This document shows positions 2,758 to 59,660 of a DNA stretch of 64,000 nt, piece by piece. The translations under genes and the position numbers were made by a program. The notes below the pieces were generated by a model that saw nothing but the letters and a program-made list of their open reading frames with translations, ran no database searches and was not told the origin of the DNA. Source of the stretch: Spirochaetota bacterium (GTDB lineage: Bacteria > Spirochaetota > UBA4802 > JAFGJZ01); contig JAKPJF010000207.1 of NCBI GenBank assembly GCA_029554345.1, positions 1 through 64,000 on the forward strand, written 5' to 3'. Each line of letters opens with the position of its first letter. Within the stretch, counting starts at the first letter, position 1.

Positions 2758-3735
2758 GTTTCCGCACGGAGGCGGAAACATTGCCTGCGAGGCGGACGGA
2801 GTCCGCAGCAGGAGAACGCAAGCGTTACCTCGGAGATATAGGTGTTAAATTGATTTAAAGTTACATTCGGAGCGAACAGGAAGTTCGCGGAGATAACGAA
2901 TCATTTGATTGAAGTCATTAGCAAATCCGCAGGCGCTTGCACAGGATGTGCATTGCAAATCGCTTTGTGTCGTCCTCCGTGACGACAAGTTGCGATTTGT
3001 TGCCGGATTCCTTCCGGCAATGAGGCGCGGCCAGGACGGCAAACGCGCCGAGGAGTAGAAACTGTCGAGACGCTTTTGTGCAAACCTCCTGTTTGCGAGG
3101 GAAGCGTCTCGATTGTCGGGATCGTTCCGACTGCCTGCGAGATGGACGAAGTCCGCAGCAGGAGAACGCAAGCGTTACCGCATAGTTTGAGGTGATAAAT
3201 CAATTTGATGTTGTATCCGGAGCGAACAGGAAGTTCGCGGAGATAAAGCAATGGTATACTGAATTTGTGAGTAAATCCGCACGGAGGCGGAAACATTGCC
3301 CGCTATGGACGAAGTCCATAGCGGGAGACCGCAAGCGTTACCGCATAGTTTGAGGTGATAATTGGCATTATTGATATAATCGAAACGGTCAAGGATGACC
3401 GTTGAGAAAAAGCAACAATTGTATTCAAGCATAAATGCTCTAACGCACGGAGGCGGAAACTGTCGAGACGCTTTTGTGCAAACTTTGAGCCATCACGATG
3501 ATGGCAACGAGACTCTGTGCCAGGACGGCACAAAAAGAGTCGAGCAGTTTGCGAGGGAAGCGTCTCGATTGTCGGGATCGTTCCGACTGCCTGCGAGGCG
3601 GACGAAGTCCGCAGCAGGAGAACGCAAGCGTTACCTCGGAGATATAGGTGTTAAATTGATTTAAAGTTGCATTCGGAGCGAACAGGAAGTTCGCGGAGAT
3701 AAAGCAATGGGACACTGAATTTGTGAGTAAATTTT
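2758..3735. repeat. Mosaic array of nested hairpin repeats; no protein gene
   Basis: No convincing coding sequence lies between purE and the vapB promoter; open frames here are by-products of the repeats. The stretch is built from recurring hairpin modules. A is TCCGC-acggag-GCGGA (2758-2779, about 3276-3292, partial at 3445). B is CCTGC..GGAC-gaa-GTCC..GCAGG (about 2783, 3132, 3299, 3590). C is AACGC-aa-GCGTT. D is an AT-rich spacer with TGAGGTG or ATAGGTG. E is GCGAAC-aggaa-GTTCGC (about 2872, 3231, 3678). G is CGAGACGCTT...AAGCGTCTCG (3066-3111 and 3464-3567), always followed by GTCGG-gatcgtt-CCGAC. The loops of G hold further hairpins, nested up to four levels at 3464-3567. Separate nested hairpins fill 2938-3049. 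Modules A to E recur in the same order at 59397-59530. Confidence 0.85.
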
Positions 3736-3770
3736 ACAGGAGCCGAGGTGAGGGCGCACGTATTTTTTTT

Positions 3771-3937: not shown

Positions 3938-3961
3938 ATCAGATGAATGGGGGATAATTAT

Positions 3962-4192
3962 ATGGACGCAGCAAAAATATTTACAACCGGAAGGAGTCAG
4001 GCCGTAAGATTGCCAAAGGAATATAGATTTTTAACCGAATCTGTATTTGTTAAACGGATTGATGATATGGTTATTCTTATACCGAAAGATAAAGTTTGGG
4101 ATAATTTTTCAAAAAGTCTGGAGAAGTTTCCTGAAAATTTTATGTCTGAACGGATTCAGCCGGCCATTGAAGCGAGAGAAATTATCGAATGA
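3962..4192 (+). CDS. VapB-type antitoxin (AbrB/SpoVT fold)
   Basis: This antitoxin of 76 residues should bind and neutralise the downstream PIN-domain RNase and repress the shared promoter. The N-terminus has the AbrB-like swapped-hairpin pattern TTGRSQAVRLPKEYRF, typical of VapB/MazE proteins that act on VapC. The C-terminal half, which would wrap the toxin, is acidic to mixed. I prefer the ATG at 3962; an in-frame ATG at 3947 would add five residues. The TGA stop overlaps the toxin ATG by four bases. Confidence 0.88.
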   Translation: MDAAKIFTTGRSQAVRLPKEYRFLTESVFVKRIDDMVILIPKDKVWDNFSKSLEKFPENFMSERIQPAIEAREIIE

Positions 4193-4587
4193 AGTATCTT
4201 CTTGATACAAACATATGTATTTATATTATCAATAAAAGACCCGTTTCTGTTATACAGCGGTTGTCGAATTATGAAATAGACGATATTGCCATATCTTCAA
4301 TTACGGTTTCGGAACTCGAATACGGCATCAATAAAAGTAAAAATCCTGATAACAGCCGAATTGCATTAATTGAATTCCTGTTGCCGTTTAAATTGATTGA
4401 TTATGATTTTAAAGCGGCAAAAGAATATGGGATTATCAGATCGGACTTGGAAAAATCCGGTCAACCGATCGGAGCGATGGATTATTTATTAGCGGCACAG
4501 GCAATATCGTTAGATTTAATTTTGGTTTCTAATAATTTGAAGGAATTTTCAAAGGTTAAGAAATTGAGAATGGAGAACTGGGTTTAA
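4189..4587 (+). CDS. VapC-type toxin, PIN-domain ribonuclease
   Basis: This is a PIN-domain endoribonuclease of 132 residues; VapC toxins typically cut tRNA or rRNA in a Mg2+-dependent way. Acidic metal-binding positions are visible: the Asp in LLDTNICIYI, the Glu in TVSELEYG and the Asp in GAMDYLLAAQA. The C-terminal SNNLKEFSKVKKLRMENW matches the usual VapC ending. It overlaps the antitoxin start-stop (ATGA), so production is coupled. The hairpin tail at 4588 follows directly. Confidence 0.9.
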   Translation: MKYLLDTNICIYIINKRPVSVIQRLSNYEIDDIAISSITVSELEYGINKSKNPDNSRIALIEFLLPFKLIDYDFKAAKEYGIIRSDLEKSGQPIGAMDYLLAAQAISLDLILVSNNLKEFSKVKKLRMENWV

Positions 4588-4950
4588 TTACATGGTGTCA
4601 TGTGATACATAAAAGGTGCAGAGCACCTTTTAAATCCGATTTGTCCGGTCACCGGACTTGTTGTCAAAGGCTTCGCCTTTGTAATCCGGTTTCGCATGGA
4701 TCATGCGAGAATATTCAAAGGGACGAGGAGCTCAGTCGCCGCTCCTCATCCCTTTGAGATCCCACTCCTGGCTTTTATCGGGCGAATTCCTCGCACCGGC
4801 TTTTCGCCGGACGCTGCGGTCGCGCGTTGCGAGGCGCTTTTATTCCGACTTCCTGTCGGAAATTGAAGCGCCTCGGTGGCGGTTCTCCTACCGCCTTAGT
4901 GTCCGACTGCGTCGGACGTTTTAATGATTTTGTTTTCATTCATCTTTTCC
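4588..4950. repeat. Hairpin-module tail behind vapBC
   Basis: No gene is supported here. Successive hairpins are ACATG-gtgt-CATGT, AAAAGGTGC-aga-GCACCTTTT (4611-4631, terminator-like), GTCCGG-tc-CCGGAC type, AAAGGC-ttc-GCCTTT, CGCATG-gat-CATGCG, and a long AAAGGG...CCCTTT stem with GAGGAGC...GCTCCTC inside. GAGGCGCTT...AAGCGCCTC (4831-4874) encloses CCGAC-ttcct-GTCGG. GGCGGT-tctcct-ACCGCC and GTCCGAC-tgc-GTCGGAC complete the set. The first and last modules recur, with stem changes, behind mazEF. Confidence 0.8.
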
Positions 4951-5152: not shown

Positions 5153-5175
5153 AAATGATCGATAGGTTATTCATT

Positions 5176-5424
5176 ATGAAAGTCAATATTGTACAAATAG
5201 GAAACTCAAAGGGGATACGAATACCTTCTTCAGTTCTATCACAATGTCATATCGGAACAGAAGTTGAAATGAAGATTGAAAATCAGAAAATCATTATTAT
5301 TCCTGTAAAAGAAACACCCAGAAGAGAATGGTCGAAAAAGTTCAAAGAAATGTCTGAAAATAAACACGACTCTTTGCTTATTGATGATTCATTGGATATT
5401 GAGCAGGAAGATTTCGAATGGTAA
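5176..5424 (+). CDS. MazE/PemI-type antitoxin (AbrB fold)
   Basis: The protein has 82 residues. The N-terminus KVNIVQIGNSKGIRIPSS is a clear MazE/PemI DNA-binding swapped hairpin. The C-terminus is acidic (SLLIDDSLDIEQEDFEW), as expected for the part that occupies the MazF active site. An upstream in-frame ATG at 5155 is less likely because it lies at or before the expected transcription start. The gene overlaps mazF by seven bases, the usual coupled arrangement, and together they should autorepress the promoter. Confidence 0.88.
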   Translation: MKVNIVQIGNSKGIRIPSSVLSQCHIGTEVEMKIENQKIIIIPVKETPRREWSKKFKEMSENKHDSLLIDDSLDIEQEDFEW

Positions 5425-5741
5425 TAGATCAATATGATGTTGTGTTGGTAAATCTTGACCCAACAGTCGGTCATGAAATTAAAAAAAGCCGGCCATGTAC
5501 CGTAATTTCGCCGAATGAAATGAATCATAATATTTCAACAATAATCATTGCGCCAATGACAACAAAAGGACATGACTATCCATCCCGTGTTAAGACAAAT
5601 TTTAATTTGAAGGATGGATGGATAGTTATAGATCAGATTAGAACGATAGACAAAGTAAGAATAATTAAAAAATTAGGTAAACTTGACAAGAAAACGATCA
5701 CGAAGATCAAAGCAGTTATTAAAGAAATGTTGGTAGAATAA
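5418..5741 (+). CDS. MazF/PemK-type toxin, sequence-specific mRNA interferase
   Basis: This is a toxin of 107 residues in the MazF/PemK/CcdB fold. Family motifs are visible in order: a start with YDVVLVNLDPTVGHEIKKSRP (G-H-E and S-R-P blocks), then CTVISPNEMN, then IIIAPMTTKG near residue 50. MazF enzymes cut single-stranded mRNA at short sequences; the cut site here is unknown. The stop is followed within a few bases by the hairpin CGCATG-gtgt-CATGCG. Confidence 0.9.
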   Translation: MVIDQYDVVLVNLDPTVGHEIKKSRPCTVISPNEMNHNISTIIIAPMTTKGHDYPSRVKTNFNLKDGWIVIDQIRTIDKVRIIKKLGKLDKKTITKIKAVIKEMLVE

Positions 5742-5945
5742 GTTTCGCATGGTGTCATGCGAGACACAAAAGGTGCTTCGCACCTTTTAAATCCGTTTGC
5801 CGATTTCTTTTGCGTGCCCAAAAGAAATTCGGCGAAAGAAAAGGGCACCGCTGCGCGGGGCTTGTCGCGACAGAACTATCGCGCATTTCTTCGAAATGAC
5901 TGCGATAATCTGCGCTTATTTGGTGTCCGACTGCGTCGGACGGTT
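5742..5945. repeat. Hairpin-module tail behind mazEF
   Basis: No gene is supported. The stretch opens with CGCATG-gtgt-CATGCG (5746-5761) and AAAAGGTGC-ttc-GCACCTTTT (5768-5788), and closes with GTCCGAC-tgc-GTCGGAC (about 5926-5942). These are the same first and last modules as behind vapBC, with compensatory stem or loop changes. The middle modules differ: a long imperfect TTTCTTTTG/CAAAAGAAA stem and an ATCGC..GCGAT stem enclosing ATTTC-ttc-GAAAT. Confidence 0.8.
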
Positions 5946-6028
5946 TTGGTGTTATTGCTATCATCCGTCTTTATTTGAAGTGCTTAGCGCACTTTCTTGA
6001 TTTTAGAAATCATTCATTTTATAATATC

Positions 6029-6071
6029 ATTACGCGTTTATTCGCTGCGCTCAGCATACGCGTAATTTTTT
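6029..6071. terminator. Strong hairpin with T-tract
   Basis: A perfect 9-bp stem, ATTACGCGT / ACGCGTAAT, with a smaller GCT..AGC pairing inside is followed by five or more T. It could end transcripts leaving the mazEF unit. Apart from this hairpin, 5946-6335 shows no recognisable gene; it is AT-rich. Confidence 0.55.
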
Positions 6072-29535: not shown

Positions 29536-29970
<435 letters not shown>

Positions 29971-58276: not shown

Positions 58277-59438
58277 GAAGAAAAATTTTGCCGAGTATTC
58301 GGCCTTTTTTATATTTAAGGCGGTTGTGTTTCCGCTTTCATGGTTTATTCCTCTATTTCTTGAGCAGAAAGGTATTACCGGAATCTATACGGGGATATTG
58401 ATGGCGGAGGTTCCGCTTGTAAGCTTTCTTCTTGCTTTTCCTTCAGGTATAATTAATGACAGGGTAGAATCAAGAAAACTCATTCTATTTGCGTTTCTTC
58501 TTCTGTCGGGTTTTGCCGCGGCGCTCAGTTTCGGCTCAAGCTTTGCGGTGCTTATTCCCGTATTCGCGCTTTTCGCTTGCGGAAAAAGTCTATTTCAGTC
58601 AAGCTTCGATTCACTTTTCATAAAGCGTCTTCTCGGTGAACATTCTGAAAAGCATCTTGTAAAATATTTGTTTGTGACTGCAGCGGCCGGATTTATCGGA
58701 TTGGCCTCGGTTTTTCTTTTTCAGATTATTTACGGCGAAAATTCCAATTTTAAGCTGATGACGATTGCAGCATGCGTGATTTTCGCAGTTTCATCTTTGA
58801 TAGCGTTCAAGCTTAAAAAAACACATACGGCAAAAGTTCCTCTGCGCGAATACGGAAAGACGAAAACAGGCAAGGGTATAATTGTTTTCTGTATAATTCT
58901 ATTTCTCTTTTCATCGCACTGGGGAGCCGAAGAAACATGCTACGCGTTGTTTCTTAAGCATTATTTACACGCCGGAATGGTGGATACAACAGTATACATG
59001 ATGTGCGAGTTTTTAGCGTTTCCGGCAGCTGCATTTTTCTTTGCCGGAATAATAGAGAAGGGCAAGATGTCGCTTCTGACATTATTTATGATCGGCGTAT
59101 TTTTTTCAGGATTAACGATGATACTGAAAGTAAATCCGAACTATTATTTTTCATTAGCGATGAGAATGATTCACGGCGCGAGCGACGGAATGGTTTTGCT
59201 TGTAACACTTCACGGACTCGGTTCGCTTTTTGATAAGAAGAAGCTCGGCGGAAACATGGGGATATGGGGAATATCGCAAGTCGCTGGAAGCCTCTTCGGA
59301 ATGATGATATATCCGAAAATAGGTCATTCACTCGGATATCAGTATTCGTTTATCATAAGCGGAATATCATTAATCATTACCGCGATGCTGATTTTACTTT
59401 CCGCATGGATGCGGAAAGATAGCCCGCGAGGTGGTTGA
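58275..59438 (+). CDS. Major facilitator superfamily transporter
   Basis: The protein has 387 residues and about 12 membrane helices. The loop 2-3 motif is seen as FPSGIINDRVESRKLIL (family GxxxDRxGRR), and a mid-protein basic loop (KLKKTHTAKVPLREYGKTKTGKG) divides the halves. The substrate is unknown. The ATG at 58275 is chosen because of the promoter position; 58242 would lie before transcription starts. The last 14 codons and the stop fall inside the hairpin mosaic, so the C-terminus AWMRKDSPRGG is repeat-derived. Confidence 0.85.
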   Translation: MKKNFAEYSAFFIFKAVVFPLSWFIPLFLEQKGITGIYTGILMAEVPLVSFLLAFPSGIINDRVESRKLILFAFLLLSGFAAALSFGSSFAVLIPVFALFACGKSLFQSSFDSLFIKRLLGEHSEKHLVKYLFVTAAAGFIGLASVFLFQIIYGENSNFKLMTIAACVIFAVSSLIAFKLKKTHTAKVPLREYGKTKTGKGIIVFCIILFLFSSHWGAEETCYALFLKHYLHAGMVDTTVYMMCEFLAFPAAAFFFAGIIEKGKMSLLTLFMIGVFFSGLTMILKVNPNYYFSLAMRMIHGASDGMVLLVTLHGLGSLFDKKKLGGNMGIWGISQVAGSLFGMMIYPKIGHSLGYQYSFIISGISLIITAMLILLSAWMRKDSPRGG

Positions 59439-59660
59439 AGACCACAGCGGGAAAACGCAAGCATTACCTTGGAGTTTGAGGTGTTAAGTTAATTTCAAGT
59501 TATAATCGAAGCGAATAGGATGTTCGCTGAGAAAAACTTATAACGTAATGATTCCAAAAATAAATCCGCATGGAAGCCGCTCCTGTCGAGACGCTTTTAA
59601 ACCGGCTTCCTGCCGGATTTGTAGCGTCTCGGTTGTCGGGATCGTTCCGACTGCCTGCGA
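59397..59660. repeat. Second locus of the nested hairpin mosaic
   Basis: Modules recur in the order seen at 2758-2890. A is CTTTCCGCAT-gg-ATGCGGAAAG (59397-59418). B is CCCGC-gagg-TGGT-tgaag-ACCA-ca-GCGGG. C is AACGC-aa-GCATT. D is the spacer with TTTGAGGTGTTAA. E is AGCGAA..TTCGCT. G is CGAGACGCT...AGCGTCTCG (59587-59631), enclosing CCGGC-ttcct-GCCGG and followed by GTCGG-gatcgtt-CCGAC. Stem bases differ from the 2758 copy but pairing is kept. The gap 59439-59736 holds no gene. Confidence 0.8.

Follow-up and report, generated by a model that had tools for sequence, protein, structure and literature searches.

Within the 64,000-nucleotide stretch of Spirochaetota DNA analysed here (the window), purE, encoded on the minus strand, and a vapBC-like pair flank a gene-free stretch (2758-3735) that is filled with hairpins, some of them lying in the loops of others. 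What these hairpins are, how they multiply and what keeps their stems paired are the questions raised by this locus, for which the original prediction offered either a palindromic element that targets the loops of existing copies or a family of structured RNAs. The stretch is built from four copies of a multi-hairpin unit of ~165 bp (unit A) and two copies of a two-hairpin module of 66 bp (module G). These elements probably form a family of modular, non-autonomous hairpin repeats confined to one genus, in which arm-to-arm DNA copying and/or selection keeps the stems paired.

Unit A contains four hairpins: H1 and H2 come first, followed by the conserved linker AACGCAAGCGTTACC, by H3 and by a palindromic, AT-rich tail. 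All copies in the window lie on the plus strand. Copy 1 (2758..2901) was recovered by the covariance model for unit A (R1) with 157.5 bits (E = 9.1e-32) and has a DNA fold z of -4.60; its H1 (2758-2779) carries the loop ACGGAG, its H2 (2784-2812), which precedes the linker, the loop GGA, and its H3 (2868-2892) the loop AGGAA with a flanking GA-rich internal loop. The bases on either side of H3, here and in other copies, read CGA(A/G)..(T/G)GAG and may form a tandem G-A internal loop, and an H3 variant in locus L036 has a second tandem G-A within the stem. In place of the H1 loop of the next unit stands a block of hairpins (2925..3062; DNA fold z -4.95), located at 2938-2952 (loop GGA), 2956-2999 enclosing 2968-2987 (inner loop CTCCGT), 3000-3020 (loop TTCCT) and 3024-3049 (enclosing the loop AGGAC).

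Module G is positioned between H1 and H2 in unit-A copies 2 and 4. Its first copy (3066..3131; covariance model R2, E = 6.1e-15; fold z -6.18) consists of the stem CGAGACGCTT/AAGCGTCTCG with the inner hairpin GCAAAC/GTTTGC, followed by a second hairpin (GTCGG/CCGAC) that occupies the H1 slot of unit-A copy 2 (3115..3251; R1 E = 3.0e-23). Unit-A copy 3 (3275..3415; R1 E = 1.1e-26) has the H2 stem CTATGGAC/GTCCATAG and the H3 stem AACGGTC/GACCGTT with the loop AAGGAT. In the second module G copy (3464..3587; R2 E = 7.3e-5), a branched insert of ~60 nt with hairpin loops CGA and AGGAC replaces the inner hairpin loop, as judged from an empty/filled comparison of positions 3085 and 3483. Unit-A copy 4 (3571..3707; R1 E = 2.2e-25) is followed by the AT-rich tail and a 3' terminal motif, GGTGAGGGCGCAC (3708..3765), which is common to other copies; a similar motif lies downstream of copies in L027, L034, L036, L037, L038, L039 and L043.

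Two further arrays with many matches in the congener lie on the same strand of the window. One (4589..4930), made of other hairpin modules, includes a module G copy (4830-4895; stem GAGGCGC/GCGCCTC; R2 E = 1.6e-12), and the other (5742..6070) is located 3' of mazEF-like genes. Both putative toxin-antitoxin pairs, vapBC-like (3947-4587) and mazEF-like (5155-5741), are bounded by hairpin arrays. In addition, a unit-A copy (59398..59540, plus strand; R1 E = 5.3e-31) with the H1 loop ATGGAT and the H2 stem GTGGTT/GACCAC is followed by a module G copy with a CCGGC inner hairpin (59587..59651, plus strand; R2 E = 1.6e-12; fold z -6.13). All modules named in the original prediction were found at the positions claimed, including three module G copies with the differing contents described (3066-3111, 3464-3567 and 59587-59631); the fourth, at 4830-4895, had been overlooked. 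Module B of the original prediction, said to keep its pairing while changing bases, indeed does so and is the H2 of the larger unit A. Elsewhere in the window, an Rfam large-subunit rRNA match (29629-29956), with model positions 2045-2912 squeezed into 328 bases, represents a shortened or chimeric 23S fragment.

Covariance-model searches of this genome and its relatives bore out the expectation of a multicopy family. The 3.03-Mb draft genome (96% complete) contains 38 unit-A copies (best E = 5.6e-32) and 30 module G copies, and its sole congener, a draft metagenome assembly that is 66% complete, at least 10 of each; a hairpin survey covered about 0.5 Mb of the former. R1 identified no unit A in the other 391 of 393 genomes of the phylum searched, 44 members of the order included, and R2 no module G in the order beyond this genus (44 genomes). 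The sole match to a unit-A pattern scanned against one genome per species was the congener, uncultured Spirochaetes MAG UR.bin167. Among the genomes searched, the elements are restricted to this genus. A plasmid or phage origin was rejected, as a plasmid search returned no similar DNA, the neighbouring array L030 matched neither plasmids nor phages, and the unit-A pattern was absent from viral contigs.

Copies are intergenic, located between unrelated genes and frequently at contig ends, since repeats break the assembly. The gene upstream of unit A is mostly directed away from the element and the downstream gene towards it, with unit A opposite to the neighbouring gene on 31 of 44 gene sides (p about 0.01), a statistic that is indicative only because the copies are related. 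For the purE locus, the congener contig available for comparison terminates inside purE.

The nested structure at 3462-3590 is, as originally proposed, the predicted minimum-energy fold of the single-stranded DNA (z -7.05), and the other blocks have predicted folds with z values of -4.6 to -6.2; none of 200 shuffled sequences folded as well. Across 46 unit-A copies, which are related and non-independent like all copies underlying the covariation and wobble counts reported here, 94.5% of stem cells are paired and 17 of 25 pairs show double changes. When the pairing was shifted by 1-3 columns, the paired fraction dropped to 32-42% and the covariation score to 0.05-0.10, compared with 0.441 in the correct register and 0.173 +/- 0.009 in shuffled alignments. 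Compensatory cells number 175 (49.8 +/- 6.7 in shuffles), confirming that the compensatory changes noticed earlier are real and that the fold is selected or copied. For instance, the inner H2 pair 35-49 is UA in 18 copies, AU in 16, CG in seven, GC in four and UG in one. Module G reaches a covariation score of 0.596 (0.201 +/- 0.023 shuffled). A chance or low-complexity artefact was rejected in view of the 38 covariance-model matches and of covariation far above shuffles in both elements. Such strength of shape conservation, together with the swapping of whole modules, is unusual for dispersed hairpin repeats.

Selection on an RNA is expected to leave more G-U pairs than A-C mismatches on the transcribed strand, while a palindrome kept at the DNA level should contain both equally. 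It is possible, though unlikely, that unit A is a structured RNA, either a dispersed multicopy noncoding RNA or a 3' or 5' UTR element, with a selected plus-strand fold and with G and other modules as optional domains. On the plus strand of unit A, about 14 G-U and 3 A-C stem events were counted (hand count of listed cells; p = 0.013), close to the 8:2 in stems of nine tRNAs from the same genomes, yet modules outside unit A yield 29 G-U versus 57 A-C on the same strand, even though G sits inside A. The plus-strand RNA folds better than the minus strand in 38 of 46 unit-A copies, which, like the wobble bias, is what an RNA gene would show and speaks against a repeat family maintained as DNA. 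The non-random orientation relative to genes and the possible tandem G-A pairs beside H3 also fit an RNA, but loops are no better conserved than spacers (0.843 versus 0.838; stems 0.875), a search of Rfam 15 gave no match above the gathering threshold for either A or G, the distribution is confined to the genus, and the copies share no common promoter, the 5' flank being different at each.

Over all array hairpins, 44 G-U and 48 A-C position-type events indicate no overall wobble asymmetry, and orienting the hairpins of all modules by their purine-rich loops gives a non-significant 54:39 (p = 0.15); hairpins with GGA loops listed across the sample included too few with mismatches for use. Transitions are more frequent among compensated pair changes (97:44) than among one-sided ones (161:127; p = 0.012), which hints at G-U intermediates and hence at selection. 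Loop inversion, a possible result of template switching, left no sign. We conclude that DNA-level maintenance explains most modules; RNA-level selection is weakly supported for unit A only, where it is possible but unproven.

How the arrays change was followed by array-against-array BLAST, which yielded 154 empty/filled pairs that reduce to 19 distinct junction contexts when pairs due to a coding gene's tandem repeats are left out. Insertions of hairpins into loops, as originally envisaged, do exist: some G copies carry the branched insert in their inner loop, G itself lies inside a CAAAGG hairpin, and a two-hairpin module is housed by a long hairpin in both L018 and L030 but by a different hairpin in L048. 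Loops are not a preferred target, however, as 6 of the 19 junction contexts fall in a hairpin loop, whereas shifting the positions within the same DNA predicts 7.5 (p = 0.84), so that loops are hit no more often than their hairpin-dense surroundings; this part of the original prediction is unsupported. The stems of G fall into three classes, CGAGACGCTT, CGAGGCGCTT and GCGATGCCTT, also listed as GAGACGC, GAGGCGC and GCGATGCC, each bound to its own context; these contexts are the position between H1 and H2 of unit A, a terminal block after CGCCCG, and the loop of a CAAAGGCTTC/GCCTTTG hairpin. The H1 slot of unit A can be occupied by four different hairpins.

Loci with and without insertions differ in module content at shared flanks, although an exact empty site for unit A was not found. 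Unit A is present in L018 of the congener and missing from the orthologous L100 (flank of 917 bp, 86% identical). L030 and L048 share a left flank of 1237 bp (98.2% identical) and differ both by G, which only L030 contains, and by their loop insert, another module occupying a loop in L048. In L049 (1440) and L099 (880), unit A starts directly after the T-run of the terminator of the same upstream gene, with differing stems. Simple tandem duplication, which the original prediction had set against its own account, adds to arrays, with a period of 165-170 bp in L021, L036 and L047, but was rejected as the whole account because it cannot explain module presence and absence. Separately, apparently coding short-unit repeats that expand and contract between copies occur in L027, L034, L036, L038, L042 (about 300-1600) and L147 (about 2100).

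In the mechanism that we favour, unit A and smaller modules such as G would be copied across intergenic DNA as single units, tandem arrays or composite blocks, and modules would come and go between hairpins and, less often, within loops, the latter building up the nesting. Stems may stay paired mainly through quasipalindrome template switching: where single-stranded DNA folds back during replication, one arm would serve as the template for the other and pass its changes on to it; template switching during replication has been described to create and maintain hairpins (PMC8794818). Unit A may be subject to additional selection on its RNA or DNA fold. As no dedicated transposase was identified, we infer that the elements are copied by DNA-based recombination or template switching, often in composite blocks. 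Against this reading, neither target-site duplications nor terminal inverted repeats were recognisable at the copies.

GGA is present in nearly every H1 loop and in most H3 loops although their stems differ; these loops (ANGGAN, AGGAN) resemble CsrA sites, and the genome encodes CsrA with its conserved arginine kept (HRKE). A rather improbable combination would be a mobile family of covarying RNA hairpins: transcripts of unit A would bind CsrA or another cellular RNA-binding protein through their GGA loops, and the arrays would make up a decoy or regulatory RNA, dispersed and evolvable, that expands as new hairpin domains are taken up, some of them within its own loops. We regard as very unlikely that the elements are CsrA-binding decoys proper, with the GGA of H1 and H3 loops in array transcripts titrating CsrA in the manner of CsrB/RsmZ. 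The presence of csrA and the recurrence of GGA on differing stems would suit such decoys, but several H3 loops read CGA, the loops of module G are TCC or TCG with GGA or CGA on the opposite strand only, and the copies are scattered without a common promoter. A weak match to CsrB (RF00018) in L022 would also favour decoys, but its 16.5 bits fall well short of the 71 bits required for gathering, and the window contains none.

That the family consists of REP/BIME-type elements moved by a Y1 transposase (RAYT), or of MITE relatives of IS200/IS605, deserves little credence: the copies are interspersed, palindromic, mosaic, intergenic and multicopy, with GGAG motifs close to hairpins, but Y1_Tnp (PF01797) is absent from the 96%-complete genome while present in 5 of 14 control genomes, and a unit of ~165 bp comprises several dissimilar hairpins. 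By the Y1 test, the family falls outside the REP elements that depend on RAYT. That the arrays are attC-like sites of a chromosomal integron with toxin-antitoxin cassettes between them is hardly credible, for although hairpin arrays separate the vapBC-like and mazEF-like pairs, no integrase exceeds the cut-off (TIGR02249 best 90.8 versus 265 bits) and copies are dispersed on many contigs, next to purE and other housekeeping genes.

Both unit A and module G are dispersed hairpins whose stems are kept paired by double changes, as in hairpin-forming elements. Organelle genomes contain repetitive hairpin-forming and double-hairpin elements, such as those of sponge mtDNA (PMC2800124), which likewise are dispersed in intergenic DNA as single and double hairpins with complementary stem changes and no known transposase. 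The present family differs from these in residing on a bacterial chromosome, in the larger size of unit A with four different hairpins in fixed order, and in optional modules at defined places. Double-hairpin elements also occur in Allomyces and Volvox. BOX elements of bacteria are modular mosaics of palindromic pieces and are similar in this respect. BIME/REP elements (PMC3733652) share this mosaic build, an intergenic location, high copy number and no evident coding capacity. Compared with both, no RAYT transposase was found here, and stems vary with compensation among copies in one genome. The sponge RNAs CsrB/RsmZ (RF00018) are similar in their multiple hairpins with GGA in penta- and hexaloops, as seen here in most H1 and H3 loops though not in module G on the same strand, but no significant match was obtained, the copies are dispersed, and CGA and reverse-strand loops are present.

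Hairpin repeats dispersed through genomes are familiar as genomic passengers, and covariation normally counts as proof that an RNA is functional. In the present case, genus-restricted repeats display strong covariation within one genome, while most modules lack the G-U bias expected from RNA selection, and they therefore offer a way to test whether RNA covariation can be mimicked in bacteria by template copying from one arm to the other. With arrays in two species and partly conserved flanks, the gain and loss of hairpin modules can be watched.

Flavo-1 RNA (RF01705; PMC2864571) is comparable as a hairpin-rich dispersed element but differs in sequence and fold, and A and G have no RF01705 match. 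In Flavobacterium, Flavo-1 is reported to occur in both orientations relative to transcripts (PMC9723704). Rfam matches to Flavo-1 are present in both genomes of the genus and in none of 44 other members of the order searched. In the congener, they lie on the minus strand of L162 (G001:C206; 95-168, 1836-1912, 7228-7299 and 9027-9100), spaced between repeated Rhs-like C-terminal gene modules, and further matches are found in L163 (G000:C191; 675-742 and 5510-5561). A module upstream of unit A in L018 (about 950-1057) and L030 (about 1384-1490), on the minus strand and of the form GCGTGAGGGATTG...GCGGAAAGG...AAGCCCGACC...GGCACGCCC, resembles the Flavo-1 of L150 by eye only, cmscan reporting none. 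The L150 copy lies in a viral contig (8467-8541), and parts of this Flavo-1 element have matches in plasmids from Paraclostridium, Moraxella, Phocaeicola and Bacteroides, which represent three phyla.
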